From: Rhodospirillales bacterium BBD 1991-14 | Lineage (GTDB): Bacteria > Pseudomonadota > Alphaproteobacteria > Kiloniellales > Kiloniellaceae | Assembly (NCBI GenBank): GCA_001657395.1 | Contig: LYSY01000001.1 | Span: 124,001-188,000 of the forward strand | Direction: 5' to 3' | DNA: 64,000 nucleotides | In this document: positions 53,101 through 63,961 of the stretch, in pieces | Layout of the letters: the number at the start of each line of letters is the position of its first letter | Position numbering within the stretch: position 1 is the first letter of the stretch | Program-made: the position numbers and the translations under genes | The notes under the pieces: model-generated | What the model saw: the letters and a program-made list of their open reading frames with translations, nothing else | Database searches by the model: none | What the model was told of the DNA's origin: nothing

Positions 53101-53748
53101 TCATTCGGGGCGGCGGGCAGCAAAGCGCACGACATGCGCGATGCCACGATGCCGCCGTCCCTCATCGAGGCGGACCTCTCCCGCCAGCGCTTCGACCACC
53201 GCCAAACCGGGCGTAGCACCATGGAGTTCCGCAAGACTGTAAAGGAGGCCGGGATCTTCAGGCCCCATGTTGGCGTGCACCGCCTGCTCCTTGGAAAAGG
53301 CCTCGACGACGAGCCAGCCGCCGGGGGCGAGCGCTGCGGCGGCCTGTTCAAGGGCGCGCAGCCGCGTGCCCGCAGGCGCCTGCAGGTAGAACAGGGTGGC
53401 GAGGTCCCAGCTCTGCCCGGGGCCCGCACTCCAGCTGTCCAGATCGGCGGTCCGGCGCTCGACCGTCACCCGGTTAAACCGGTCGAAGGCCAGCGCCTTT
53501 TCGGTGGCCACCGCGGAAATGTCCAGCGCCGCGACTGTCAATCCCCGGCCCGCCAGCCAGGCCCCGTTGCGCCCGTCGCCGTCGGCCAGGCAAAGAGCGC
53601 TGCGGACCCTGAAGTCCGAGCGTGCCGCGACCATCCGCAGGTACTCGTTTGGCGCGGTGCCGAACAGCGGTTCTTCCGCCGCTTCGTAGCGTGCGTCCCA
53701 GCGCTGCGCTGTCGTACTGCCATTGGACGTCCCGTCCTTTTCTTCCAT
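53101..53748 (-). CDS. Class I SAM-dependent methyltransferase
   Basis: 215 residues with a Rossmann methyltransferase core: RWDARYEAAEEPLFGTAPNEYL, SAM-binding ALCLADGDGRNGAWLAGRGLTVAALDIS (the usual G-x-G is changed to ADGDGRNG) and the GGWLVVEAFSKEQ region. It resembles small-molecule methyltransferases of the tellurite-resistance/thiopurine type; substrate unknown. Its start lies 14 bases from the divergent ModA-like start, so promoters must lie inside the neighbouring gene, or a later start is used. Confidence 0.75.
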   Translation of the reverse strand: MEEKDGTSNGSTTAQRWDARYEAAEEPLFGTAPNEYLRMVAARSDFRVRSALCLADGDGRNGAWLAGRGLTVAALDISAVATEKALAFDRFNRVTVERRTADLDSWSAGPGQSWDLATLFYLQAPAGTRLRALEQAAAALAPGGWLVVEAFSKEQAVHANMGPEDPGLLYSLAELHGATPGLAVVEALAGEVRLDEGRRHRGIAHVVRFAARRPE

Positions 53749-53762
53749 GGAGGAATCCTTTC

Positions 53763-54584
53763 ATGGGCAGACTTTTCGCCGCTGCCGTTCTCGCAACACT
53801 TCTGTCGACCAGCATGACCGGGGCCGCCGCCGCCGACCAGCCCTTGCAGCTCTACGCTGCCGGAAGCCTGAAAGCGGCGCTGAGCGATGTTGCGGAAGGC
53901 TATGCCCAGGTCTACGGCCAGCAGGTAGAAACGACCTTCGCGCCCTCCGGCCTGTTGCGCCAGCGTATCGAAGCGGGCGAGCAAGCGCATGTCTTTGCCT
54001 CGGCCAACCTCCATCATCCGCAAACGCTGGAAGGGGCGGGCCACGGTGGGCCGGTTGCACTCTTCGCCCGCAACCGACTCTGTGCACTGGCGCGGGGCGG
54101 CCTTGCAGTGGAAAGCGCAACGGTGCTGGAGGTCATGCTCGATCCGTCTGTGCGCCTCGGCACCTCCACGCCCATGGCCGATCCTTCCGGCGACTACGCC
54201 TGGGCGCTCTTTGCCAAGGCGGAGCGCCTGAAGGAGGGGGCGCAGGCCTCGCTGGAAGGCAAGGCGCTGCAACTGACCGGCGGTCCGGACAGTGCCAAGG
54301 CCCCGGGCGACCGCAACCTCTATGGCTGGGTCATGGAGTCCGGGCGGGCCGACCTTTTCCTGACCTACTGTACGAACGCCGTCCTGGCGCAGAAGCAGGT
54401 GCCAAGTTTGCAGATTGTCGCTCTGCCTGCGCCGCTCGCGGTCGGAGCGGACTATGGCCTTGTCGTGCTCGACGGCGCGCCGGAGACGGCTTGGCGCCTG
54501 GCGATGTACATCCTCTCGTCCCAAGGCCAAAGCCTGCTGGCCGGCTATGGTTTTGAGAGCGGCGCCTTGCCGGCGGGCGAGTGA
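53763..54584 (+). CDS. ModA-like molybdate-type substrate-binding protein
   Basis: 273 residues with a signal peptide cleaved after AAAA-DQ (about residue 24). Family landmarks are LYAAGSLKAALSDVAEGY, FAPSGLLRQRIEAGEQAHVFASAN and the later STPMADPSGDYAW. Periplasmic proteins of this type bind oxyanions such as molybdate or tungstate. GGAGGAA lies upstream, inside the methyltransferase start region. No ModB/ModC genes follow, so it may share the Tup permease or act with a distant one. Confidence 0.8.
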   Translation: MGRLFAAAVLATLLSTSMTGAAAADQPLQLYAAGSLKAALSDVAEGYAQVYGQQVETTFAPSGLLRQRIEAGEQAHVFASANLHHPQTLEGAGHGGPVALFARNRLCALARGGLAVESATVLEVMLDPSVRLGTSTPMADPSGDYAWALFAKAERLKEGAQASLEGKALQLTGGPDSAKAPGDRNLYGWVMESGRADLFLTYCTNAVLAQKQVPSLQIVALPAPLAVGADYGLVVLDGAPETAWRLAMYILSSQGQSLLAGYGFESGALPAGE

Positions 54585-54639
54585 CCGCGAAGAGCCAGTG
54601 TTGTTCGGCGCTGCCGATAAGGCTTGGTGCAGACCTTCG

Positions 54640-55530
54640 CTAGGGTCCGTTCCACTGGACCCGGCCGAAGCCGCTGACATCGTAGCCGCCCAGCGCTTTC
54701 GCCTTCTCCGCGAAGGCCGGGCGGCGGCAGAAGGCCAGGAGCCTCTGCATCGGCGGCTCGAACCAGCCGCGGCGGTCGGCCACAAGATCGAAGCGCTCCT
54801 CGGCGAGAGCGAGAAAGGGAAGACCGAACTGCTGCGCCATGGCCTGCAGGCCGAGCGCGGCTTGCGCGTCGCTGGCGGCGACGGAGGCCGCCGCTTCGGT
54901 TTCCGTGCGGGCCAGTCCGGGCAGCCAGTCGATGTCCTCCGCTGAGAGGCCGTCGCGCTTCAACAGGTGCTGCAGCAGGAGCGCCGCACCGGCGGCCGGC
55001 TGACGCTGAACCACCTTGCGTCCGCGCAGGTCGGCGGGCGCCTGCACCTCTTTCTCAAGGCCCTTCGCCAGGATCAGCCCCTGCTGCCGCCGGGCGAACT
55101 CCACGACGACCACCGGCTGGCCGGCCAGCTTCGCGGCGACGTGGTTTACGTTCCAGTCGTCCCGCGCCGCCTCGAAGACATGCATGCCGGCGGCGGCAGC
55201 TTCGCCGGCGGCAATCCGCTCAAGCCCGTCCAGGGAGCCGTCGAAGAAGGTGGCCAGTCCGGACCCGGACTCGCGGATCGCCCAGTCGAGCAGGGGATCA
55301 TGGCTGCCGGCGACCACGTTGGGCCGCGCCGCGGCCGGCTTGGCTGTACCTGCGCTTCCGGTCAGCCAGGCTTCCAGTTCCAGGCGCGGGAACAGCAGCT
55401 TGCCGGTGACGCGCCGGCAGGGGATCTCGCCCTCGGCGGCGAGGTCATAGACCTTGCGCTCCTTGACCCTGAGCAACTCGGCCACTTCCTTGGTGGTCAG
55501 GAAGGCGGGGGAGGCCTCTCCCTCTGTCAT
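54640..55530 (-). CDS. Helix-turn-helix regulator with periplasmic-binding-type ligand domain
   Basis: 296 residues. An N-terminal excisionase-type winged helix (FLTTKEVAELLRVKERKVYDLAAEG, about 10-60) is joined to a molybdate-binding-protein-like domain (about 85-290; SGLATFFDGSLDGLERIAAGEAAAAGMH, DDWNVNHVAAKLAGQPVVVVEFARRQQG). Such proteins are regulators that sense oxyanions or their complexes. Beside tup and ModA-like genes it is a good candidate for molybdate/tungstate-responsive control. Only a weak ribosome-binding site is seen before the ATG. Confidence 0.75.
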   Translation of the reverse strand: MTEGEASPAFLTTKEVAELLRVKERKVYDLAAEGEIPCRRVTGKLLFPRLELEAWLTGSAGTAKPAAARPNVVAGSHDPLLDWAIRESGSGLATFFDGSLDGLERIAAGEAAAAGMHVFEAARDDWNVNHVAAKLAGQPVVVVEFARRQQGLILAKGLEKEVQAPADLRGRKVVQRQPAAGAALLLQHLLKRDGLSAEDIDWLPGLARTETEAAASVAASDAQAALGLQAMAQQFGLPFLALAEERFDLVADRRGWFEPPMQRLLAFCRRPAFAEKAKALGGYDVSGFGRVQWNGP

Positions 55531-55915
55531 GGCTGGGCTCTCATGGCCGGGCTCTCACGGCCGAAAGCCGCGATGGCGGGCGGATACAACGATGACCAAG
55601 CGGGTGTCCTCGGGTGAAAGAAACGCCAGTGGAAGAACCTCTCGGGCGGATGATAGGACATGCGCGATTGCAAAGGCAAAGGCAGCCAGGCAAGGCGGCC
55701 TTTCCTGAGGGGCGCTTGAGGCAGCGACCCGAACGCCGTGCTGCGGGTCTTTTCGGCGGTCTGCTGGAGTGCACAAATTCTAGGCGCCTCCCCTGGTATG
55801 ATTAATTTCTAGGCAAATGAGAATTATCGTTGTTTTACAAATGTTTGTATACGGTGTTTCCCTTTGAGCAAGGAATTGCGCGGACTTCCGCCGCAATCCT
55901 CCTCTGTCCGCAGAC
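55531..55915. other. Non-coding region upstream of the guanidine operon promoter
   Basis: About 385 bases without a supported gene. It holds the upstream region of the HTH-PBP gene and an AT-rich island at about 55795-55860. The island includes AATGAGAATTATCGTT, loosely Fur-like, and TTTACAAATGTTTGTA. A TGCAC half-site near 55770 could be part of an NtrC site, but the second half is not evident. Confidence 0.4.
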
Positions 55916-55931
55916 TGGCACGCAGCTTGCT
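55916..55931 (+). promoter_or_regulatory. Sigma-54 (RpoN) promoter of the guanidine operon
   Basis: TGGCACG (55916-55922), four bases (CAGC), TTGCT (55927-55931), an exact match to the -24/-12 consensus TGGCACG-N4-TTGCW. The predicted start near 55942 lies just before the riboswitch aptamer. Sigma-54 promoters require an enhancer-binding activator such as NtrC, which implies nitrogen control. Confidence 0.85.
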
Positions 55932-55944
55932 GAATTAATGACTG

Positions 55945-56046
55945 CAGGGCGTCTAGGGTTCCGGCCGTTTGGGTGACGGTGTCTGGTCCGAGAGGCGCAC
56001 TCCGGGCAACGCACCCGGAGCCACGGCGGGCCAAAATCCCGGGAGA
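55945..56046 (+). promoter_or_regulatory. Guanidine-I (ykkC) riboswitch
   Basis: The conserved blocks of the class occur in order: CTAGGGTTCCG (55953-55963), CTGGTCCGAGAG (55983-55994), GGAGCCACGGCGGG (56017-56030) and CCCGGGAGA (56038-56046). In between, paired stems CCGGCCG/GGTG-type and CTCCGGG/CCCGGAG (56000-56006 / 56013-56019) are visible. This aptamer binds guanidinium and usually turns on transport or degradation genes, which follow here. A longer open frame starting inside it is discarded. Confidence 0.9.
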
Positions 56047-56096
56047 TCACTGCAAGAGGTCTGAGGCCGTCTTACAGGTGATTCCCAATCCTGATG
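56041..56096 (+). promoter_or_regulatory. Candidate expression-platform hairpin of the riboswitch
   Basis: GGGA-g-ATCAC-TG (56041-56052) can pair with CA-g-GTGAT-TCCC (56085-56096), about 11 pairs with two bulges. It would consume the conserved GGGAGA end of the aptamer, so the two structures are mutually exclusive. There is no U-run after it; the ribosome-binding site at 56129-56134 is outside. Confidence 0.5.
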
Positions 56097-56140
56097 TCGA
56101 CCTCCGACGCAAAGAAACAAGATCGAACAGGAGGTTTGGG

Positions 56141-57241
56141 ATGCTGCAGTTTCTATCGCTAGGAGGCATCGGGCGGCGCAGCTTCGCTGCGATTGTCGCC
56201 GCGCTCTGTCTTGCGGTCTCCACCGCTTCGAGCCAGCCGGCGGAAGCCGCCAAAAAGGAAAGCTTCCGCGTTGCGTGGTCCATCTATGTGGGCTGGATGC
56301 CCTGGGCCTACGCCGACGAGATGGGCATCGTGAAGAAGTGGGCGGACAAGTACGGCATCAAAATCGAAGTCGTGCAGATCAACGACTACATCGAGTCCAT
56401 CAACCAGTTCACCGCCGGCGCCTTCGACGGCACCGTCATGACCAATATGGATGCGCTCAGCATTCCGGCCGGCGGCGGTGTCGATTCAACAGCGCTGATC
56501 CTCGGCGACTTTTCCAACGGCAACGACGGCTTGGTGGTGAAGGGCGAAGGCGACATCGCCGCACTGAAGGGCAAGAACGTCAACCTGGTCGAGCTTTCGG
56601 TGTCCCACTACCTGCTGGCACGGGCATTGGACAGCGTGAAGCTGGCGGAGCGCGATCTGACCGTCGTCAACACTTCCGACGCCGACATGGTCGCCGCCTT
56701 CAAGACCGCGGACGTCGAGGCGGTTGTGACCTGGAACCCGCTGCTCAGCGAGATCGCGGCCGAGCCGGGCGCCAAGGTGCTTTACACCTCTGCCGACATT
56801 CCCGGTGAGATCATCGACATGATGGTGGTGAATACCGAGGTGCTGAATGCCAATCCGGACTTCGGCAAGGCGTTGGTGGGCGCCTGGTACGAGACCATGG
56901 CGATCATGTCCGCTGACGATGAAGCCGGTAAGGCGGCGCGCACCTTCATGGGCGAGAAGTCGGGCACCGACCTGGCAGGCTACGAGGCACAGCTCACCAC
57001 CACCAAGATGTTCTACGAGCCCGGCGAGGCGATTGCCTTTGCCAAGAGCCCGGAACTGGTTGAGACCATGGACGTGGTGCGGCAGTTCCTCTTCACCCAC
57101 GGCATCCTGGGCGAGGGCGCGCCAAGCCCGGACTATGTCGGCATGACATTCCCCTCCGGCGCGACTCTGGGCGATCAGGGCAACACCAAGCTCCGCTTTG
57201 ACGCCAGCTTCATGAGCATGGCCGCGGACGGCATGCTGTAA
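56141..57241 (+). CDS. NitT/TauT-type ABC transporter substrate-binding protein, probable guanidine importer
   Basis: 366 residues. An N-terminal signal peptide is cleaved near AEA-AK (about residue 36). The NMT1/SsuA-like fold is shown by VAWSIYVGWMPWAYADEMGIVKKWADKYGIKIEV, INQFTAGAFDGTVMTNMDAL and the later VEAVVTWNPLLSEI. It is the first gene behind the guanidine-I riboswitch and is followed by its permease, ATPase and a guanidine-hydrolase-like gene, so guanidine is the likely ligand. AGGAGG lies 6 bases before ATG 56141; an in-frame start at 55973 would be inside the aptamer. Confidence 0.85.
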   Translation: MLQFLSLGGIGRRSFAAIVAALCLAVSTASSQPAEAAKKESFRVAWSIYVGWMPWAYADEMGIVKKWADKYGIKIEVVQINDYIESINQFTAGAFDGTVMTNMDALSIPAGGGVDSTALILGDFSNGNDGLVVKGEGDIAALKGKNVNLVELSVSHYLLARALDSVKLAERDLTVVNTSDADMVAAFKTADVEAVVTWNPLLSEIAAEPGAKVLYTSADIPGEIIDMMVVNTEVLNANPDFGKALVGAWYETMAIMSADDEAGKAARTFMGEKSGTDLAGYEAQLTTTKMFYEPGEAIAFAKSPELVETMDVVRQFLFTHGILGEGAPSPDYVGMTFPSGATLGDQGNTKLRFDASFMSMAADGML

Positions 57242-57269
57242 GGCACGGCGAACTTGCCAGCGGCGCGGC

Positions 57270-58091
57270 ATGGCACGGGCACTGAACCGGCGGCCGGGGC
57301 GGGCGGGGCTGATCCTGCTGGGGGCCTTGCCCTTCGTCGTTCTGGTCGCCGTCTATCTGGTCGCCTCCGATGCCCGCCTGGCGGTCAATCCGGCGGACAA
57401 GCTGTTGCCGTCGCCGGAGAGCTTGGCCGCCGCCATCGATCGTCTCGCTTTCCAGCCCGATCCACGCAGGGGAACCTACATCTTATGGTCGGATACCCTG
57501 GCCAGTCTTCTGCGCCTCTTTCTGGGGCTTGCGGTCGCCACAGGCATCGGGCTTGCCGCGGGAATCGCCATCGGCCTGCTGCCCCTGGTGCGCGCCGCCT
57601 TTGCACCCCTGGTGGCGGCACTGTCGATGGTGCCGCCGCTGGCCATTCTGCCGATCCTGTTCATCGTCTTGGGGCTCGGCGAGCTGTCCAAGGTCGTCCT
57701 CATCGTCATCGGGATCGCGCCGTTTCTGGTGCGCGATCTCTCCATGGCCGTCGGCAGTCTGCCGCGCGAACAACTGGTGAAGGCGCAGACCTTGGGAGCC
57801 TCCACCTGGCAGATCGTCACCCGTGTCGTGCTGCCCCAGACTCTGCCGCGCCTCGTCAGCGCCCTGCGGCTTTCGCTGGGGCCGGCCTGGCTCTTCCTCA
57901 TCTCCAGCGAGGCCATCGCTTCGACCGAGGGCCTCGGCTACCGGATCTTCCTGGTACGCCGCTATCTCGCCATGGACGTCATCCTGCCTTACGTCATCTG
58001 GATCACGCTGCTCGCCTTCCTGCTCGACTATCTTCTGCGGCTGTTCGCGCGCCGCGCCTTCGGCTGGCTGCCGGGGGAGCAGCAGCCATGA
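57270..58091 (+). CDS. NitT/TauT-type ABC transporter permease of the guanidine operon
   Basis: 273 residues with about six membrane segments and the SsuC-type loop EQLVKAQTLGASTWQIVTRVVLPQTLPRLVSALR. It forms the channel for the preceding binding protein. A weak ribosome-binding site precedes the ATG, 28 bases after the previous stop. It overlaps the ATPase gene by ATGA. Confidence 0.88.
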   Translation: MARALNRRPGRAGLILLGALPFVVLVAVYLVASDARLAVNPADKLLPSPESLAAAIDRLAFQPDPRRGTYILWSDTLASLLRLFLGLAVATGIGLAAGIAIGLLPLVRAAFAPLVAALSMVPPLAILPILFIVLGLGELSKVVLIVIGIAPFLVRDLSMAVGSLPREQLVKAQTLGASTWQIVTRVVLPQTLPRLVSALRLSLGPAWLFLISSEAIASTEGLGYRIFLVRRYLAMDVILPYVIWITLLAFLLDYLLRLFARRAFGWLPGEQQP

Positions 58092-58909
58092 GCCTGATCT
58101 CGGTCAGAGACGTCTCGCAGACCTACGGCGCCCAGACGGTGCTGGAACGCATCAACCTGGACATCGAGGCCCAGGAGTTCTGCACCATCGTCGGGGCCAG
58201 TGGTTGCGGCAAGTCGACCTTCCTCAGGCTGCTCTTGAGCGAGGAGCGCCCGACCCGCGGCGTCATCGAACTGGACGGGGCGCCGCTCGGCAGCGAGCCG
58301 GATGCCGACCGTGGCGTTGTCTTCCAGCGCTACTCGGTCTTTCCCCACCTGACGGTGATGGAAAACCTGATCCTGCCGCTGGAACTGCGCGCTTCGAAGC
58401 TTTGGGGCCGGCTCTTCGGCGCACACCGGCGCGAGGCCATGGCGCAGGCCGAACACCTGCTGGAGCGCGTCGGCCTCGCCCATGCGCGCGACGCCTATCC
58501 GAAGACCCTTTCCGGCGGCATGCAGCAGCGCCTTGCCATTGCCCAGGCCCTAATACCCCGGCCCAAGGTCCTGCTGCTGGACGAGCCCTTCGGTGCGCTC
58601 GACCCCGGCACGCGGGCGCGCATGCACGAGATCATCCTGTCGCTCTGGCAGGAAGAGAAGATGACCATCTTCATGGTCACGCACGACCTGAAGGAGGGCT
58701 TCAAGCTCGGCACGCGCCTGCTCGTCTTCGACAAGCTGCGCTGGGACCCCCATGCGCCGGAGGCTTACGGCGCCACCATTACCTACGACCTGCCGCTGAA
58801 GGATCGCCGAACGCTGCCGGACGGCGTCGCGGCGGCCCTGAGCGGCAGCGAAAACGACGACAACCAACGCCTGCCTGGGAACAAAGGATCTCTTGATGTT
58901 TTGCACTGA
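58088..58909 (+). CDS. NitT/TauT-type ABC transporter ATP-binding protein of the guanidine operon
   Basis: 273 residues with Walker A GASGCGKST, signature [11 protein letters not shown], Walker B VLLLDEPFGALD and switch VTHDLKEGF. Two features depart slightly from SsuB/TauB: the C-terminal ~40 residues (GATITYDLPLKDRRTLPDGV) and the KEGF instead of DEA-type helix. The gene's 3' end overlaps the hydrolase gene by 14 bases, binding uptake to degradation in one transcript. Confidence 0.88.
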   Translation: MSLISVRDVSQTYGAQTVLERINLDIEAQEFCTIVGASGCGKSTFLRLLLSEERPTRGVIELDGAPLGSEPDADRGVVFQRYSVFPHLTVMENLILPLELRASKLWGRLFGAHRREAMAQAEHLLERVGLAHARDAYPKTLSGGMQQRLAIAQALIPRPKVLLLDEPFGALDPGTRARMHEIILSLWQEEKMTIFMVTHDLKEGFKLGTRLLVFDKLRWDPHAPEAYGATITYDLPLKDRRTLPDGVAAALSGSENDDNQRLPGNKGSLDVLH

Positions 58910-60131
58910 TAACCGCCGGCGCGCCACCAAAGCGGCCGGGGCCTCGGCGCCCGTGCCGGCAAGCCGGCGCCATCACCACCCGGACTTCGACAAGATGCAG
59001 CTCCAGGGCTGGCGCTCGGCCCTGAAGGAGGCCGACCTGCCGGAGGACGGCTGGCAGAAGGAGCGGCAGTGGGCGGTGAAGGTCGGCCTGGCGGCGGCGG
59101 ATAGCATCGAGGACCGGGGTATCTCCACCTTCGCCCGGGGCGAACTGCCGCACTATGCCGGCATCAACACCTTTCTGAAGGCGCCCTACATCGAGGACGT
59201 GGCCAAGGTCGGCGGCTACGACGCGGCGGTGATGGGCGTGCCCTTCGACGGCGGCACGACTTACAGGCCCGGCACCCGCTTCGGGCCGCAGGGTATCCGC
59301 CGCATCTCCGCGCTCTACACGCCCTACAACTACGAGATGGGCGTCGATCTGCGCGAGCAGATGACGCTCTGCGACGTCGGCGACGTCTTCACGATTCCGG
59401 CCAACATCGAAAAGACCTTCGACCAGATTTCCCGCGCCGTCTCTCACGTGTTCTCCTCCGGCGCCCTGCCGCTGATCATGGGCGGCGACCACTCCATCGG
59501 TTTCGCCACCGTACGCGGCATCGCCCAGTGCACGTCGAAGCGCATCGGCATCATCCACTTCGACCGCCATGCCGACATCCAGGAGAAGGACCTGGACGAG
59601 CGCATGCATACGACGCCCTGGTTCCATGCCACCAATCTGGAGAACGTGCCGGCGACCAACCTGGTGCAGATCGGCATCGGCGGCTGGCAGGTGCCCCGCG
59701 AAGCGGTGGTGGAGGCGCGCAAGCGCGACACCACGATCATTTCCATGGCCGATGTGGAGAAGCTGGGCCTCGACAAGGTAACCGAGATCGCCCTGGAGAC
59801 CGCCTGGGCCGGGGCCGATGCCGTATACCTGAGCTTCGATATCGACTCCGTCGACTGCGGCTTCGTGCCCGGCACCGGCTGGCCGGAGCCCGGAGGTTTC
59901 CTGCCGCGCGAGGCGCTCAGCCTGGTCAGCAAAGTGGCCGCCGAGGGGATCTGTGGCATGGAGGTGGTGGAGGTCTCGCCGCCCTACGATACCTCCGACA
60001 TCACCTCGCTCTTCGCGACCCGGGTGATGGTCGACGTGCTGGGCACCCTGGTGGCTCACGGCAAGCTGGGTGCCCACCGCACCATCATCGACAAGCCGGT
60101 CGACTTCGCGACGGGGGAGGGGCACGCATGA
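58896..60131 (+). CDS. gdmH: Arginase-family hydrolase, candidate nickel-dependent guanidine hydrolase
   Basis: 411 residues. The arginase-fold metal ligands are complete: H199 (GGDHS), D223, H225, D227 (HFDRHADIQ) and D315, D317 (SFDIDSVD). DRHAD replaces the usual DAHxD seen in arginase and agmatinase. An extra ~105-residue N-terminal part precedes YDAAVMGVPFDGGTTYRPGTRFGP, as in the guanidine hydrolase clade (GdmH of cyanobacteria, reported as a Ni enzyme). The reaction would be guanidine + water to urea + ammonia. Placement behind a guanidine riboswitch supports this. Agmatinase or guanidinobutyrase is the alternative. ATG 58896 follows AAAGGA. Confidence 0.8.
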   Translation: MFCTDNRRRATKAAGASAPVPASRRHHHPDFDKMQLQGWRSALKEADLPEDGWQKERQWAVKVGLAAADSIEDRGISTFARGELPHYAGINTFLKAPYIEDVAKVGGYDAAVMGVPFDGGTTYRPGTRFGPQGIRRISALYTPYNYEMGVDLREQMTLCDVGDVFTIPANIEKTFDQISRAVSHVFSSGALPLIMGGDHSIGFATVRGIAQCTSKRIGIIHFDRHADIQEKDLDERMHTTPWFHATNLENVPATNLVQIGIGGWQVPREAVVEARKRDTTIISMADVEKLGLDKVTEIALETAWAGADAVYLSFDIDSVDCGFVPGTGWPEPGGFLPREALSLVSKVAAEGICGMEVVEVSPPYDTSDITSLFATRVMVDVLGTLVAHGKLGAHRTIIDKPVDFATGEGHA

Positions 60132-60565
60132 CCGCCCGGCACAGCCACGCGGCCGGTCACAACCATCCGCCTGATCATGAGCACCTGCACTCTCACCTGC
60201 ACGACGGGCCGCATGCGGCGGTGCCGGGTCAGCAGCGCGACGATGAGAGCTTGCTGGCCGATGCACTGATGGAGGGATTCGACGCCGCCGAGGACAAGGC
60301 AAGCTTTCTGCGCATGGCGCGCATCCCACAACACCTGCACGGCGCCGATGGGTCGGTCCTGCGCCTCGTCGATGTGGAACTGCGCTACGCCTATCAGGTG
60401 GCGACCGCGTCGCCGGCGTTCAACGCCGACCATCTGGTCTACCTGCCGTTCCCGGCAAACATGATCCGCGAGCGCGCCACCATGGTTTTCGTCTACGTCT
60501 CGCTGCAGGAGCGGCGCGACGTCGACCTGAAGGAGATGATCCGACTGCTTGAAGACAAGGAGTAA
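60128..60565 (+). CDS. Small protein with histidine-rich N-terminus, putative metal-handling partner of the hydrolase
   Basis: 145 residues. Ten of the first 29 residues are histidine (positions 5, 7, 11, 13, 17, 19, 21, 23, 25 and 29), as in nickel-binding tails of HypB, UreE or SlyD. The rest (about 38-145) is a folded domain with mixed helix and strand that I do not recognise (FLRMARIPQHLHGADGSVLRLVDVELRYAYQVATASPAFNADHLVYLPFP). It overlaps the hydrolase stop by ATGA and is the last gene of the operon. Nickel storage or delivery is inferred from the histidines and context. No signal peptide or membrane segment. Confidence 0.75.
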   Translation: MTARHSHAAGHNHPPDHEHLHSHLHDGPHAAVPGQQRDDESLLADALMEGFDAAEDKASFLRMARIPQHLHGADGSVLRLVDVELRYAYQVATASPAFNADHLVYLPFPANMIRERATMVFVYVSLQERRDVDLKEMIRLLEDKE

Positions 60566-60963: not shown

Positions 60964-62250
60964 ATGAAATCCGTGATTAGGGGGGCGATGAGCGCTGCGG
61001 CCATGGCAGCCGTTCTCGCCGGCGGCGCAGCGGCCCAGGCGGCCGACGACGTCATCAAGGTCGGCGTGCTCCACTCGCTTTCGGGAACCATGGCGATCTC
61101 GGAGACCACACTGAAGGACACCGTCCTGATGATGGTCGATGATCTCAACAAGAACGGCGGCCTGCTCGGCAAGCAGGTCGAGGCGGTGGTGGTGGACCCG
61201 GCCTCCGACTGGCCGCTTTTTGCCGAGAAGGCGCGCGAACTGTTGGAGAAGGAACAGGTCGACGTGGTCTTCGGCTGCTGGACCTCGGTTTCGCGCAAGT
61301 CCGTGCTGCCGGTGTTCGAGGAACTCAACGGCCTGCTCTTCTACCCCGTGCAGTACGAGGGCGAGGAAAGCTCCCGCAACGTCTTCTACACCGGTGCGGC
61401 GCCGAACCAGCAGGCCATTCCGGCGGTCGAATACCTGATGAGCGAGGACGGCGGCGGGGCCGAGCGCTTCGTGCTGTTGGGCACCGACTACGTCTATCCC
61501 CGCACCACCAACAAGATCCTGCGCGCCTTCCTGAACGAGAAGGGCATCTCCGACGCCGACATCATGGAGAACTACACGCCCTTCGGCCATTCCGACTGGC
61601 AGACCATCGTTGCCGATGTGAAGGAGTTCGCTTCCCAGGGCAAGAAGACGGCGGTGGTCTCCACCATCAACGGCGATGCCAACGTGCCCTTCTACAAGGA
61701 ACTGGGCAACCAGGGCATTGCCGCCGAGGAGATCCCGGTGGTGGCCTTTTCCGTCGGGGAGGAGGAGCTTGCCGGTCTCGATACCGGACCCTTGGTCGGC
61801 CACTTGGCCGCCTGGAACTACTTCATGAGCGTCGAGGCCGACGTGAACGACGGCTTCATCGAGCAGTGGCACGCCTTCATCGGCGATGAGGACCGGGTCA
61901 CCAACGATCCCATGGAGGCCACCTACATCGGCTTCAAGATGTGGACCCAGGCGGTGAAGCAGGCCGGCACCACGGAAGTGAATGCCGTGCGTCAGGCCAT
62001 GTACGGCCAGACCGTGCCCAACCTGACCGGCGGCACGGCGGTGATGAACGCCAACCATCACCTCTCAAAGCCCGTGCTGATCGGCGAGATCCAGGACGAC
62101 GGCATGATCGAGACCGTCTGGTCGACCGACAAGGAAGTGGTGGGCGATGCCTGGAGCGACTTTATTCCGGAGAGCTCCAAGCTGACGGCCGACTGGACCT
62201 ATCCCTGGGTCTGCGGCAATTGCGAGGCGCCGACCTACGCGACCAATTAG
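60964..62250 (+). CDS. urtA: Urea ABC transporter substrate-binding protein UrtA
   Basis: 428 residues with a signal peptide ending AAAQA-AD (about residue 27). The sequence is the amide/urea-binding branch of the branched-chain amino-acid binding family: VGVLHSLSGTMAISETTLKDTVLMMVDDLN, VVDPASDWPLFAEKARELL, VFGCWTSVSRKSVLPVFEE and LLFYPVQYEGEESSRNVFYTGAAPNQQ. ATG 60964 has GGAGTG upstream; an in-frame start at 60907 adds no signal peptide logic. It would import urea, the product of the guanidine hydrolase upstream, or environmental urea. Confidence 0.93.
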   Translation: MKSVIRGAMSAAAMAAVLAGGAAAQAADDVIKVGVLHSLSGTMAISETTLKDTVLMMVDDLNKNGGLLGKQVEAVVVDPASDWPLFAEKARELLEKEQVDVVFGCWTSVSRKSVLPVFEELNGLLFYPVQYEGEESSRNVFYTGAAPNQQAIPAVEYLMSEDGGGAERFVLLGTDYVYPRTTNKILRAFLNEKGISDADIMENYTPFGHSDWQTIVADVKEFASQGKKTAVVSTINGDANVPFYKELGNQGIAAEEIPVVAFSVGEEELAGLDTGPLVGHLAAWNYFMSVEADVNDGFIEQWHAFIGDEDRVTNDPMEATYIGFKMWTQAVKQAGTTEVNAVRQAMYGQTVPNLTGGTAVMNANHHLSKPVLIGEIQDDGMIETVWSTDKEVVGDAWSDFIPESSKLTADWTYPWVCGNCEAPTYATN

Positions 62251-62266
62251 CGTGCGTGCGAAGGGT

Positions 62267-62293
62267 GAGGGGGCGACCGCCGTCTCCCCCCTC
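62267..62293 (+). promoter_or_regulatory. Hairpin between urtA and urtB
   Basis: GAGGGGG (62267-62273) / CCCCCTC (62287-62293), 7 perfect pairs with a 13-base loop, 16 bases after the urtA stop. It could lower urtB expression relative to urtA. It also argues against a urtB start at the GTG 62252. Confidence 0.5.
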
Positions 62294-62317
62294 CGATCTG
62301 TGACCCTTGTTCGGGTG

Positions 62318-63961
62318 ATGCCTGTGTTTCGAAACGTGTTGAGGATATCGCTTGTCGCCGTCGCGCTGGCCGTGTTGCTGCCGGCGGCGGCGCGGGCGGA
62401 TCTTCTCACGGATCTTCAGGCGCTCACCGAGAAATCCAACGAAACCAAGGCCGCGGCCGTGGAAGGCCTGGCCGCCGGCGGTCATGAACGGGCGCTGCCC
62501 ATCCTCGAGGCCTATCTCGATGGGCACCTGTTCCAGGTGAAGGCCGATGACCGGCTGGTGATCGGGGAAGAGGCGGGCAAGGGCTACCGCATCTTCGATG
62601 CCGTCACCGGCGAAGCCGCGGGCGAGCTTGGCAAGCGCAAGCTGCGCAAGGTCAGAATCAACAATCGCCTGCGCCAGGTGGTGAAGGCCGCACTCGGCGG
62701 GCTTACCCTGGGCAGCGCTGATCCGGCTGCGCGGATGCGCGCCGCCGATGCCGTCTTCCGCTCTGCGCCGGCGGAAATGATCGGCCCGCTGGAAGCGGCG
62801 CTGGCGAACGAACAGGATGCCAGGGTCGCCGAGCGGATCAGGCGCGCGCTGGCCGCGACCCGTCTTGTCAATGCCGAAGACGGCGCACTGCGCGTGACCG
62901 CTCTTCAGACTCTTGCAGACTTCACCGATCCCGATGTCCGCGCTGTCGTTGCCGGCGTTCTGCGCGACGACGATGCGGGTGCGCCCCTGGAGGCCGACGC
63001 GGCGGTGCGCGCTGCCGCCGAGGAGACCCTCGCGACCATCGAGCGGGCACTGGAGTTCAACAGGTTTCTCGCCAGCATCTTTCAGGGCATCAGCCTGGGC
63101 TCCGTGCTGCTGCTGGCCGCCATCGGCCTGGCGATCACCTTCGGGGTCATGGGCGTCATCAACATGGCCCACGGCGAGATGGTGATGCTGGGCGCCTACA
63201 CGACCTTCGTGGTGCAGGAAGTCTTCCGCACCTCCTTCCCCGGCTACTTCGACTATTCCCTGGCGGTCGCCATTCCAGCCGCCTTCCTGGTGACCGGCCT
63301 GGTGGGCATCGGCATCGAGCGCGGCATCATCCGTTTCCTCTACGGGCGCCCTCTGGAGACTCTGCTCGCCACCTGGGGGCTCAGCCTGATCCTGCAGCAG
63401 CTTGTGCGCAGCATCTTCGGGCCGACCAACCGCGAAGTGGGCAACCCCTCCTGGATGAGCGGCGCCTGGGAGGTGGCCGGCGGCCTGACCCTCACCTACA
63501 ACCGGCTCTGGATCATCGTCTTCGCTCTGGTGGTCTTCGCCCTGCTGATGGCGCTCATCCGCTTTTCCAGCTACGGCCTGCAGATGCGCGCGGTAACCCA
63601 GAACCGCCCGATGGCCTCGTCCATGGGCATCCGCACCGGCTGGGTCGACGCCATGACCTTCGGGCTCGGCTCGGGCATTGCCGGCATGGCCGGCGTGGCC
63701 TTGAGCCAGATCGACAACGTCAGCCCGAACCTGGGGCAGGGCTACATCATCGACAGTTTCATGGTCGTGGTCTTCGGCGGCGTCGGCAACCTCTGGGGCA
63801 CCCTGGTGGGGGCCTTCTCCCTCGGTCTGGTGAACAAGTTCCTGGAGCCTTATGCCGGCGCCGTGCTCGGCAAGATCCTGGTGCTGGTGGTGGTGATCCT
63901 CTTCATCCAGAAGCGCCCGCGCGGCCTCTTCGCCCTGCGCGGCCGCGCGGTGGAGAACTGA
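62318..63961 (+). CDS. urtB: Urea ABC transporter permease UrtB
   Basis: 547 residues. A signal-like hydrophobic N-terminus (VFRNVLRISLVAVALAVLLPAAARA) and a soluble helical region (about 28-255, repeats such as ALPILEAYLDGHLFQ and AAVRAAAEETLATIERALEFN) precede a LivH-type permease (about 260-540: NMAHGEMVMLGAYTTF, GLSLILQQLVRSIFG, AVTQNRPMASSMGIRT). This extended architecture is normal for UrtB. ATG 62318 is preferred; GTG 62315 is possible. It follows urtA and precedes urtC by four bases. Confidence 0.9.
   Translation: MPVFRNVLRISLVAVALAVLLPAAARADLLTDLQALTEKSNETKAAAVEGLAAGGHERALPILEAYLDGHLFQVKADDRLVIGEEAGKGYRIFDAVTGEAAGELGKRKLRKVRINNRLRQVVKAALGGLTLGSADPAARMRAADAVFRSAPAEMIGPLEAALANEQDARVAERIRRALAATRLVNAEDGALRVTALQTLADFTDPDVRAVVAGVLRDDDAGAPLEADAAVRAAAEETLATIERALEFNRFLASIFQGISLGSVLLLAAIGLAITFGVMGVINMAHGEMVMLGAYTTFVVQEVFRTSFPGYFDYSLAVAIPAAFLVTGLVGIGIERGIIRFLYGRPLETLLATWGLSLILQQLVRSIFGPTNREVGNPSWMSGAWEVAGGLTLTYNRLWIIVFALVVFALLMALIRFSSYGLQMRAVTQNRPMASSMGIRTGWVDAMTFGLGSGIAGMAGVALSQIDNVSPNLGQGYIIDSFMVVVFGGVGNLWGTLVGAFSLGLVNKFLEPYAGAVLGKILVLVVVILFIQKRPRGLFALRGRAVEN

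Follow-up and report, generated by a model that had tools for sequence, protein, structure and literature searches.

A predicted guanidine hydrolase operon behind a sigma-54 promoter and a guanidine-I riboswitch in Rhodospirillales bacterium BBD 1991-14

What guanidine does in nature is a matter of continuing debate. In Rhodospirillales bacterium BBD 1991-14, a sigma-54 promoter, a guanidine-I riboswitch and five genes stand in a row, which raises the question of whether guanidine is used there as a nitrogen source and how such use would be controlled. The locus lies in a stretch of 64,000 nucleotides (contig LYSY01000001.1, positions 124,001 to 188,000), here called the window, and the coordinates given below are those of the window's forward strand. 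We consider it probable that this is an operon for nitrogen assimilation from guanidine, under serial control by nitrogen shortage and guanidine together, with its own candidate nickel-delivery protein. Under nitrogen shortage, phosphorylated NtrC would bind upstream sites and activate transcription by sigma-54 RNA polymerase at the -24/-12 promoter; the transcript, with the opening base of the guanidine-I aptamer as its 5' end, would be productive only with guanidine bound. The importer would take up guanidine, the nickel enzyme GdmH would split it into urea and ammonia, and the urea would be dealt with by urea-handling genes, including the adjoining urtA and urtB. The histidine-rich fifth protein would hold nickel and deliver it to GdmH, the role of the HypA/HypB-type proteins GhaA and GhaB in cyanobacteria. 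Enzyme, importer and riboswitch are known; they are combined here with a widespread nitrogen-type promoter and an unnamed conserved partner.

The leader and the genes behind it

An earlier note, made from the letters of the window alone, had placed a consensus -24/-12 promoter so that transcription would start immediately ahead of a guanidine-I aptamer, and our analysis found both elements in this arrangement. The promoter, TGGCACG-N4-TTGCT (TGGCACGCAGCTTGCT, 55916 to 55931), matches the full -24/-12 consensus and attains the maximum of 15.0 on a scale that we devised, the score and its thresholds having been fixed after the first scores were seen. Its GG and GC, 10 bases apart in the context TGGCAC-N5-TTGC, are perfect. 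The GC of the -12 element lies at 55929 to 55930, and counting 12 bases from the C at 55930 puts the predicted start at about 55942, where the aptamer model begins. The source genome also carries rpoN (424 bits, above the cut-off).

Scanning of the whole window by cmscan, which covered the interval 55940 to 56050 that the earlier note had singled out, identified the guanidine-I aptamer (RF00442) at 55942 to 56047 with 84.6 bits against a cut-off of 63 (E 1.2e-13). The alignment spans the full model and preserves the conserved core, and this was the sole Rfam match above any cut-off in the window; a purD RNA match at 55835 to 55974 (22.5 bits, cut-off 41) was sub-threshold and was taken as chance. 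At E 0.001 the source genome gave no further Guanidine-I match. Between aptamer and first gene lies a leader (56048 to 56140, with a ribosome-binding site AGGAGG from 56129) which is a candidate expression platform. The ON direction of the switch was adopted from the literature on the guanidine-I class. When the aptamer was forced in folding, the predicted openness of the start codon rose from 0.65 to 0.81, and that of the ribosome-binding site dropped from 0.79 to 0.36, so that folding leaves the ON mechanism unexplained. A model of ribosome-binding site release was thus unsupported, strict intrinsic terminators were found in none of 75 leaders of the related loci described below, and no platform mechanism was adopted.

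The first gene (56141 to 57241) encodes the substrate-binding protein of a NitT/TauT-type importer and belongs to the 'putative urea' family TIGR03427 (550.6 bits, cut-off 333.9); it is probably a guanidine binder. The ATP-binding cassette (ABC) permease (57270 to 58091) and ABC ATPase (58088 to 58909) belong to the same broad importer type, with scores under the cut-offs of all models shown. They are followed by an arginase-family hydrolase (58896 to 60131) and a histidine-rich protein (60128 to 60565), so that the five genes are those that the earlier note had named. All five lie on the forward strand, as do promoter and aptamer. The first two genes are 28 bases apart, and each later gene overlaps the one before it (by 4, 14 and 4 bases in turn), an arrangement as in one transcript.

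Comparison with solved structures places the hydrolase as an orthologue of the nickel guanidine hydrolase GdmH. It matches Synechocystis GdmH (PDB 7esr/7oi1) at E 5e-164, with 66.2% identity over 352 aligned residues, and the Nitrospira guanidinase (PDB 9fek) at 9e-156, while the next solved ureohydrolase relative, a guanidinobutyrase, follows at 1.4e-51. The metal-site motifs are retained, as is the active-site tryptophan in the GTGWPEPGG stretch (matched by alignment; chain position 307 by our count, 305 as published). Ahead of the part alignable to the solved enzymes, proteobacterial GdmH proteins (the window's and those of L002 to L081) share a conserved N-terminal stretch of the type HHPD(F/L)xKLxGW; the short pattern HHP, then D/S/N/T, then F/L/Y, occurs in 79 of 80 and the strict pattern in only 23 of 80.

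Sigma-54 elements ahead of other guanidine-I aptamers

To place the locus among its relatives, genome contigs were scanned with the window hydrolase and the best 80 of 570 confirmed gdmH loci were taken, which biases the set toward close relatives. In 77 of the 80, the complete set of three importer genes precedes gdmH in the same orientation (distant in L065 and L075, some kilobases off in L040 and L066); two of the other three loci are cut by contig ends (L013 and L044) and one is divergent (L074). An aptamer model, R1, built from 20 aptamers (19 from these loci and that of the window), found 76 of the 80, 75 at full length and L046 partially. Leaders were aligned on the CTAGGG anchor of the aptamer; L010 and L065, whose aptamers have long insertions, were re-anchored by hand, and promoter counts omit L013, L040, L044 and L066 (no aptamer) and the partial L046. 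Rhodobacterales were grouped by taxon name, and the metagenome-assembled genomes L050, L062 and L068 were assigned after the scores had been seen; the GdmH tree agrees with the grouping.

A loose -24/-12 pattern is present in 39 of 40 gdmH leaders outside Rhodobacterales, the window included (0.18 of 40 expected by shuffling), and in none of 36 Rhodobacterales leaders. The distance to CTAGGG is 31 to 40 nt in 36 of the 39 and 66 to 70 in three Gammaproteobacteria, and the spacing is near-fixed within clades. On the GdmH tree the sigma-54 label requires two changes, against 25.6 with shuffled labels. As the label is distributed by clade, the loci within a clade are not independent, and two wider samples of the Rfam family were therefore taken.

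In the alphaproteobacterial sample, Guanidine-I was found in 31 of 385 genomes (27 above the cut-off). Twenty-nine leaders were read of 33 matches, among them two from one contig (L173 and L178), four with aptamers under the Rfam cut-off and some, L169 and L170, that probably duplicate the loci L007 and L010 of the gdmH set. Scores of at least 13.0 were reached by 23 of the 29 (0.39 in shuffles) and of at least 13.5 by 21 (0.19 in shuffles; 1 of 281 control windows). Many of these leaders precede a large gene, and the three genes examined were 'urea carboxylase' TIGR02712, the family that holds guanidine carboxylases. In the phylum sample, Guanidine-I was present in 43 of 398 genomes (41 above the cut-off), which gave 58 matches, and the 29 new loci among them were scored. 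Among classes other than Alphaproteobacteria 23 of 24 leaders scored at least 13.5 (0.10 in shuffles; 1 of 240 control windows), and among Alphaproteobacteria 3 of 5 (0.01 in shuffles; 0 of 50 control windows). The element of the other classes lies 66 to 104 bases ahead of the anchor (L196, L198 and L199 were measured from their central aptamer), and 11 of the 24 leaders have TCGC, not TTGC, at -12.

By these counts the coupling of sigma-54 element and guanidine-I aptamer is general in the proteobacterial samples outside Rhodobacterales, where it is usual in carboxylase-type operons too and independent of the gdmH operon type. The leader of L081, the sole one outside Rhodobacterales in the gdmH set without the pattern, and the six alphaproteobacterial leaders with scores below 13.0 stand against this generality. 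The chance that the -24/-12 match is a functionless string is negligible: the motif is short and the start at 55942 is predicted from sequence only, but 39 of 40 leaders with near-fixed spacing within clades, and 23 of 24 and 21 of 29 at the 13.5 level, stand against shuffles and control windows near zero. The earlier note had called the particular coupling not well described. Our search of titles and abstracts likewise found neither the coupling nor the fifth protein described, with the limit that the original guanidine-I and GdmH papers may mention either; the coupling is nevertheless not special to this operon, being usual in the proteobacterial guanidine-I leaders examined and missing in Rhodobacterales.

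Several aptamers of the set have unusual forms. Those of L010 (4871 to 5077) and L065 (5018 to 5264) contain insertions of about 100 bases or longer between conserved core elements and each depart by one base in the GGTCCGAGAG element, the sigma-54 element being kept. L074 (7199 to 7894) has a divergent pair of guanidine-I aptamers, of which one precedes gdmH and the other precedes importer genes on the opposite strand, with ureG and a urtA-like gene nearby. L155, L159 and L162, which belong to one family, share a near-identical TTTGCTGTAATTGTATACAGAG stretch just ahead of the aptamer; they have only a -12-like element and no binding-protein match ahead of the permease.

NtrC-like sites and the nitrogen signal

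Upstream of the promoter, the window contains two NtrC-like sites 29 bp apart, site 1 (TGCACAAATTCTAGGCG, 55770 to 55786) and site 2 (TGATTAATTTCTAGGCA, 55799 to 55815). Site 1 aligns with similar sites in L002 and L003, and site 2 with TGCCCAATTTCTATGCA in L002 and TGCATAATTTATATGCA in L003. The source genome has an ntrC gene (714 bits, above the cut-off) whose product carries the GAFTGA motif. From these sites and the intact NtrC gene we infer that the operon is probably under nitrogen control.

A count in which NtrC was not assumed points the same way. All 3-base dyads with spacers of 3 to 17 were counted between 300 and 75 bases upstream of the anchor, and the highest-ranking dyad in each promoter group was the NtrC core motif, TGC-N11-GCA (18 of 40 leaders of the sigma-54 group, 4.3 by shuffling; 11 of 36 in Rhodobacterales, 3.2 by shuffling). 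The full enteric consensus with at most 3 mismatches was only mildly enriched (10 of 40, about 4 expected), so the shorter dyad was relied on. In Rhodobacterales, YGC-N11-GCR occurs at -104 to -96 in 17 of 36 leaders (1.22 in shuffles), at -136 to -127 in 13 (1.37) and at both places in 8 (0.09), the two position bins having been chosen from the earlier dyad scan. The NtrC of Rhodobacter capsulatus uses sigma-70, and Rhodobacterales NtrC is reported to be without the GAFTGA sigma-54 loop (PMC6925177, PMC10274813, the latter a preprint; unless otherwise apparent, papers cited by PMC number are represented in this study by part of their text). The absence of sigma-54 elements from all 36 Rhodobacterales leaders fits both reports.

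Seventeen genomes were searched for NtrC, which was above the family cut-off in 13 (11 with GAFTGA and two with GSFTGA). The four others were G124, whose gdmH leader likewise is without a sigma-54 element, and three of family f24, of which two have non-sigma-54 gdmH leaders (L219 and L220) and one has no riboswitch match.

Some observations sit badly with NtrC. Both window sites are imperfect, though aligned with better ones in two relatives; site 2 deviates from the dyad, and a different partner was picked for site 1 by the pair scan. Twenty-two of the 40 sigma-54-group leaders have no perfect TGC-N11-GCA, and the enrichment of the enteric consensus is, as said, mild. G460 has NtrC with GAFTGA yet no sigma-54 element ahead of its riboswitch and gdmH, and the element of G738 is doubtful (score 12.7). 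The activator might then be another one acting with sigma-54, such as NtrX or an unlinked specific regulator, and the signal something other than general nitrogen limitation. The source genome has eight NtrC-family matches covering the AAA+ region, and many Roseibium-type leaders show no clear NtrC-like site, which along with the imperfect window sites would suit such an activator. We nonetheless regard it as unlikely, since the same dyad leads in both promoter groups, the promoter swap in Rhodobacterales matches a reported change in NtrC itself, and no regulator gene is among the five genes of the operon. NtrC is therefore retained here as the putative activator.

The histidine-rich partner and related operons

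The fifth protein has 145 residues, with 10 histidines within the first 30 and 13 in all, and no Pfam or NCBIfam match. A homologue lies beside gdmH in 76 of the 80 loci (at L053, where none was seen, the contig ends) and in all seven gdmH genomes of the phylum sample, that of the window included. A search of the class sample with the protein as query gave matches in 14 of 385 genomes, 11 of them with gdmH in the short flanks; the match in G242 was weak. A plasmid copy is annotated 'hypothetical protein' and follows an 'agmatinase family protein' in an operon with a 'putative urea ABC transporter'. The family (53 members aligned) consists of a variable histidine-rich tail and a core that is more conserved than the tail. 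An L-H-S stretch occurs in the tail of 70 of 76 homologues, and the number of histidines ranges from 1 to 33. The AlphaFold2 model has a mean predicted local distance difference test score of 85.1; averaged over ten residues at a time, the values are 89-98 across residues 41 to 145 and 52-57 across residues 1 to 30. Foldseek against the PDB returned 165 matches at E up to 10 and none at 0.001, and the best match in a PDB sequence search of the family (E 0.54) was taken as chance.

At 0.01, none of the 53 members matched a nickel chaperone family of the HypA, HypB or UreE type; the sole family matches were those of one member with Zip and of one with a nickel/cobalt efflux model. Genes for such chaperones were also sought near gdmH by tblastn with the proteins of the source genome. 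No HypA was found at 1e-3 in the 80 loci and five further stretches (an 80-residue query which found its positive control; a very divergent HypA could escape), and no HypB-like gene in the 85 stretches other than ureG in L074. HypB above the cut-off is absent from 8 of 10 other class-sample genomes with gdmH and partner. HypA/HypB-type chaperones are reported to be required by GdmH and also by MefH, the metformin hydrolase (PMC11271267, PMC11399263); in PMC11271267 an effect of that study's own chaperones on activity was seen only in the knockout and not in cell extracts. Because the protein is a conserved neighbour of gdmH in the operon role of hypA/hypB, with no hypA/hypB nearby, our best guess, by analogy, is that it may deliver nickel to GdmH.

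This assignment has to be set against several observations. Three Gammaproteobacteria have gdmH without the partner, G125 and G365 have a homologue without gdmH in the stretch read, the homologue of L007 has a single histidine, and the source genome has HypA and HypB elsewhere. The protein could instead be a nickel store, a subunit that stabilises GdmH or a regulator, as might be expected of a family with neither a family nor a solved-structure match, with so variable a number of histidines and with a folded core better conserved than its tail. Such a role is a serious, if tentative, possibility. Against it, the gene is nearly always directly 3' of gdmH, where it takes the part that hypA/hypB play in the operons for the cyanobacterial and metformin enzymes (PMC8390497, PMC11399263), and in one relative a HupE/UreJ-like gene adjoins it. 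That gene (L222, 5886 to 6497; nickel transporter type, by motif) directly follows the gene of the histidine-rich protein, and as the HupE-like motif was near gdmH in 1 of 90 stretches scanned, it is an anecdote. In L181 (3287 to 3894; also in L160), downstream of a guanidine-I aptamer, a binding-protein fragment continues directly into a homologue of the histidine-rich protein and the stretch contains no gdmH, owing to either a deletion or an assembly error.

Downstream of the operon, also on the forward strand, lie urtA, for the binding protein of a urea ABC transporter (60964 to 62250; TIGR03407, 575 bits, cut-off 492.75), and urtB, for a urea transporter permease (62252 to 63961; TIGR03409, 434 bits, cut-off 250.3). 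About 7 kb past the window end, a gene matching hypB under its cut-off was read as ureG from its sequence. With these genes near the operon, one region could handle guanidine through urea to ammonia (no search was made for urease). The operon might alternatively serve mainly guanidine detoxification, or act on another guanidino compound such as methylguanidine or agmatine, given that substrates vary among arginase-family members and that guanidine-I commonly controls guanidine exporters (PMC12186494). This is very improbable for an operon that encodes an importer and no exporter, stands behind a nitrogen-type promoter, adjoins urea uptake genes and has an enzyme closest to proven guanidinases. 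Upstream of the operon, the interval 53622 to 55530 holds a gene for a molybdate-binding protein and, in divergent orientation, one that combines an excisionase-type helix-turn-helix with a molybdopterin-biosynthesis-like domain.

Compared with known systems, the operon assumed here to assimilate guanidine nitrogen resembles that of Synechocystis, which has guanidine-I, a NitT/TauT-type importer and a GdmH 66% identical; hypA and hypB are named in the operons of the cyanobacterial enzyme and its analogues (PMC8390497). The Synechocystis operon has the hypA/hypB-like GhaA/GhaB, whereas that of the window has the unrelated histidine-rich protein after gdmH, and sigma-54 is absent from cyanobacteria (PMC3162934), in contrast to the sigma-54 element found here. 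The guanidinase operon of Nitrospira inopinata (PDB 9fek) likewise has a guanidine-I riboswitch and the hydrolase but an APC permease in place of the ABC importer, and the part of PMC11410670 represented here reports no nickel chaperone there. Metformin hydrolase operons (MefH/MetCaCb, hypA/hypB, hupE) resemble the present one in their nickel ureohydrolases and nickel accessory genes and differ in their heteromeric enzyme and HypA/HypB accessories (PMC11399263, PMC11271267). Guanidine carboxylase operons under guanidine-I share the riboswitch, a related importer and, in Alphaproteobacteria, usually the sigma-54 element, but follow a biotin carboxylase route instead of one-step nickel hydrolysis. 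A computed sigma-54 regulon lists 'urea carboxylase' COG3665 genes (PMC12316311, in part); its text contains no word starting with 'guanidin', and 'riboswitch' is in the reference list only, so no link to the aptamer is drawn there. The words sigma, NtrC and NtcA do not occur in a 2025 review (PMC12186494).

A wider proposal, on which we lean neither way, is that guanidine-I in Proteobacteria would generally be a second gate on sigma-54/NtrC transcripts, rebuilt with a sigma-70 NtrC promoter in Rhodobacterales, where the NtrC loop is lost, and that the gdmH branch would have replaced HypA/HypB with a new nickel chaperone family of a fold unmatched in the PDB. Should guanidine-I switches throughout Proteobacteria depend on nitrogen-limitation promoters, guanidine would be chiefly a food for these bacteria, scavenged at low nitrogen. 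Rhodobacterales provide a natural experiment, in which the riboswitch and activator-like sites persist and the sigma-54 element is gone. The unnamed partner protein gives nickel delivery a concrete candidate, which could explain the maturation of proteobacterial guanidine hydrolases and could improve their heterologous production.

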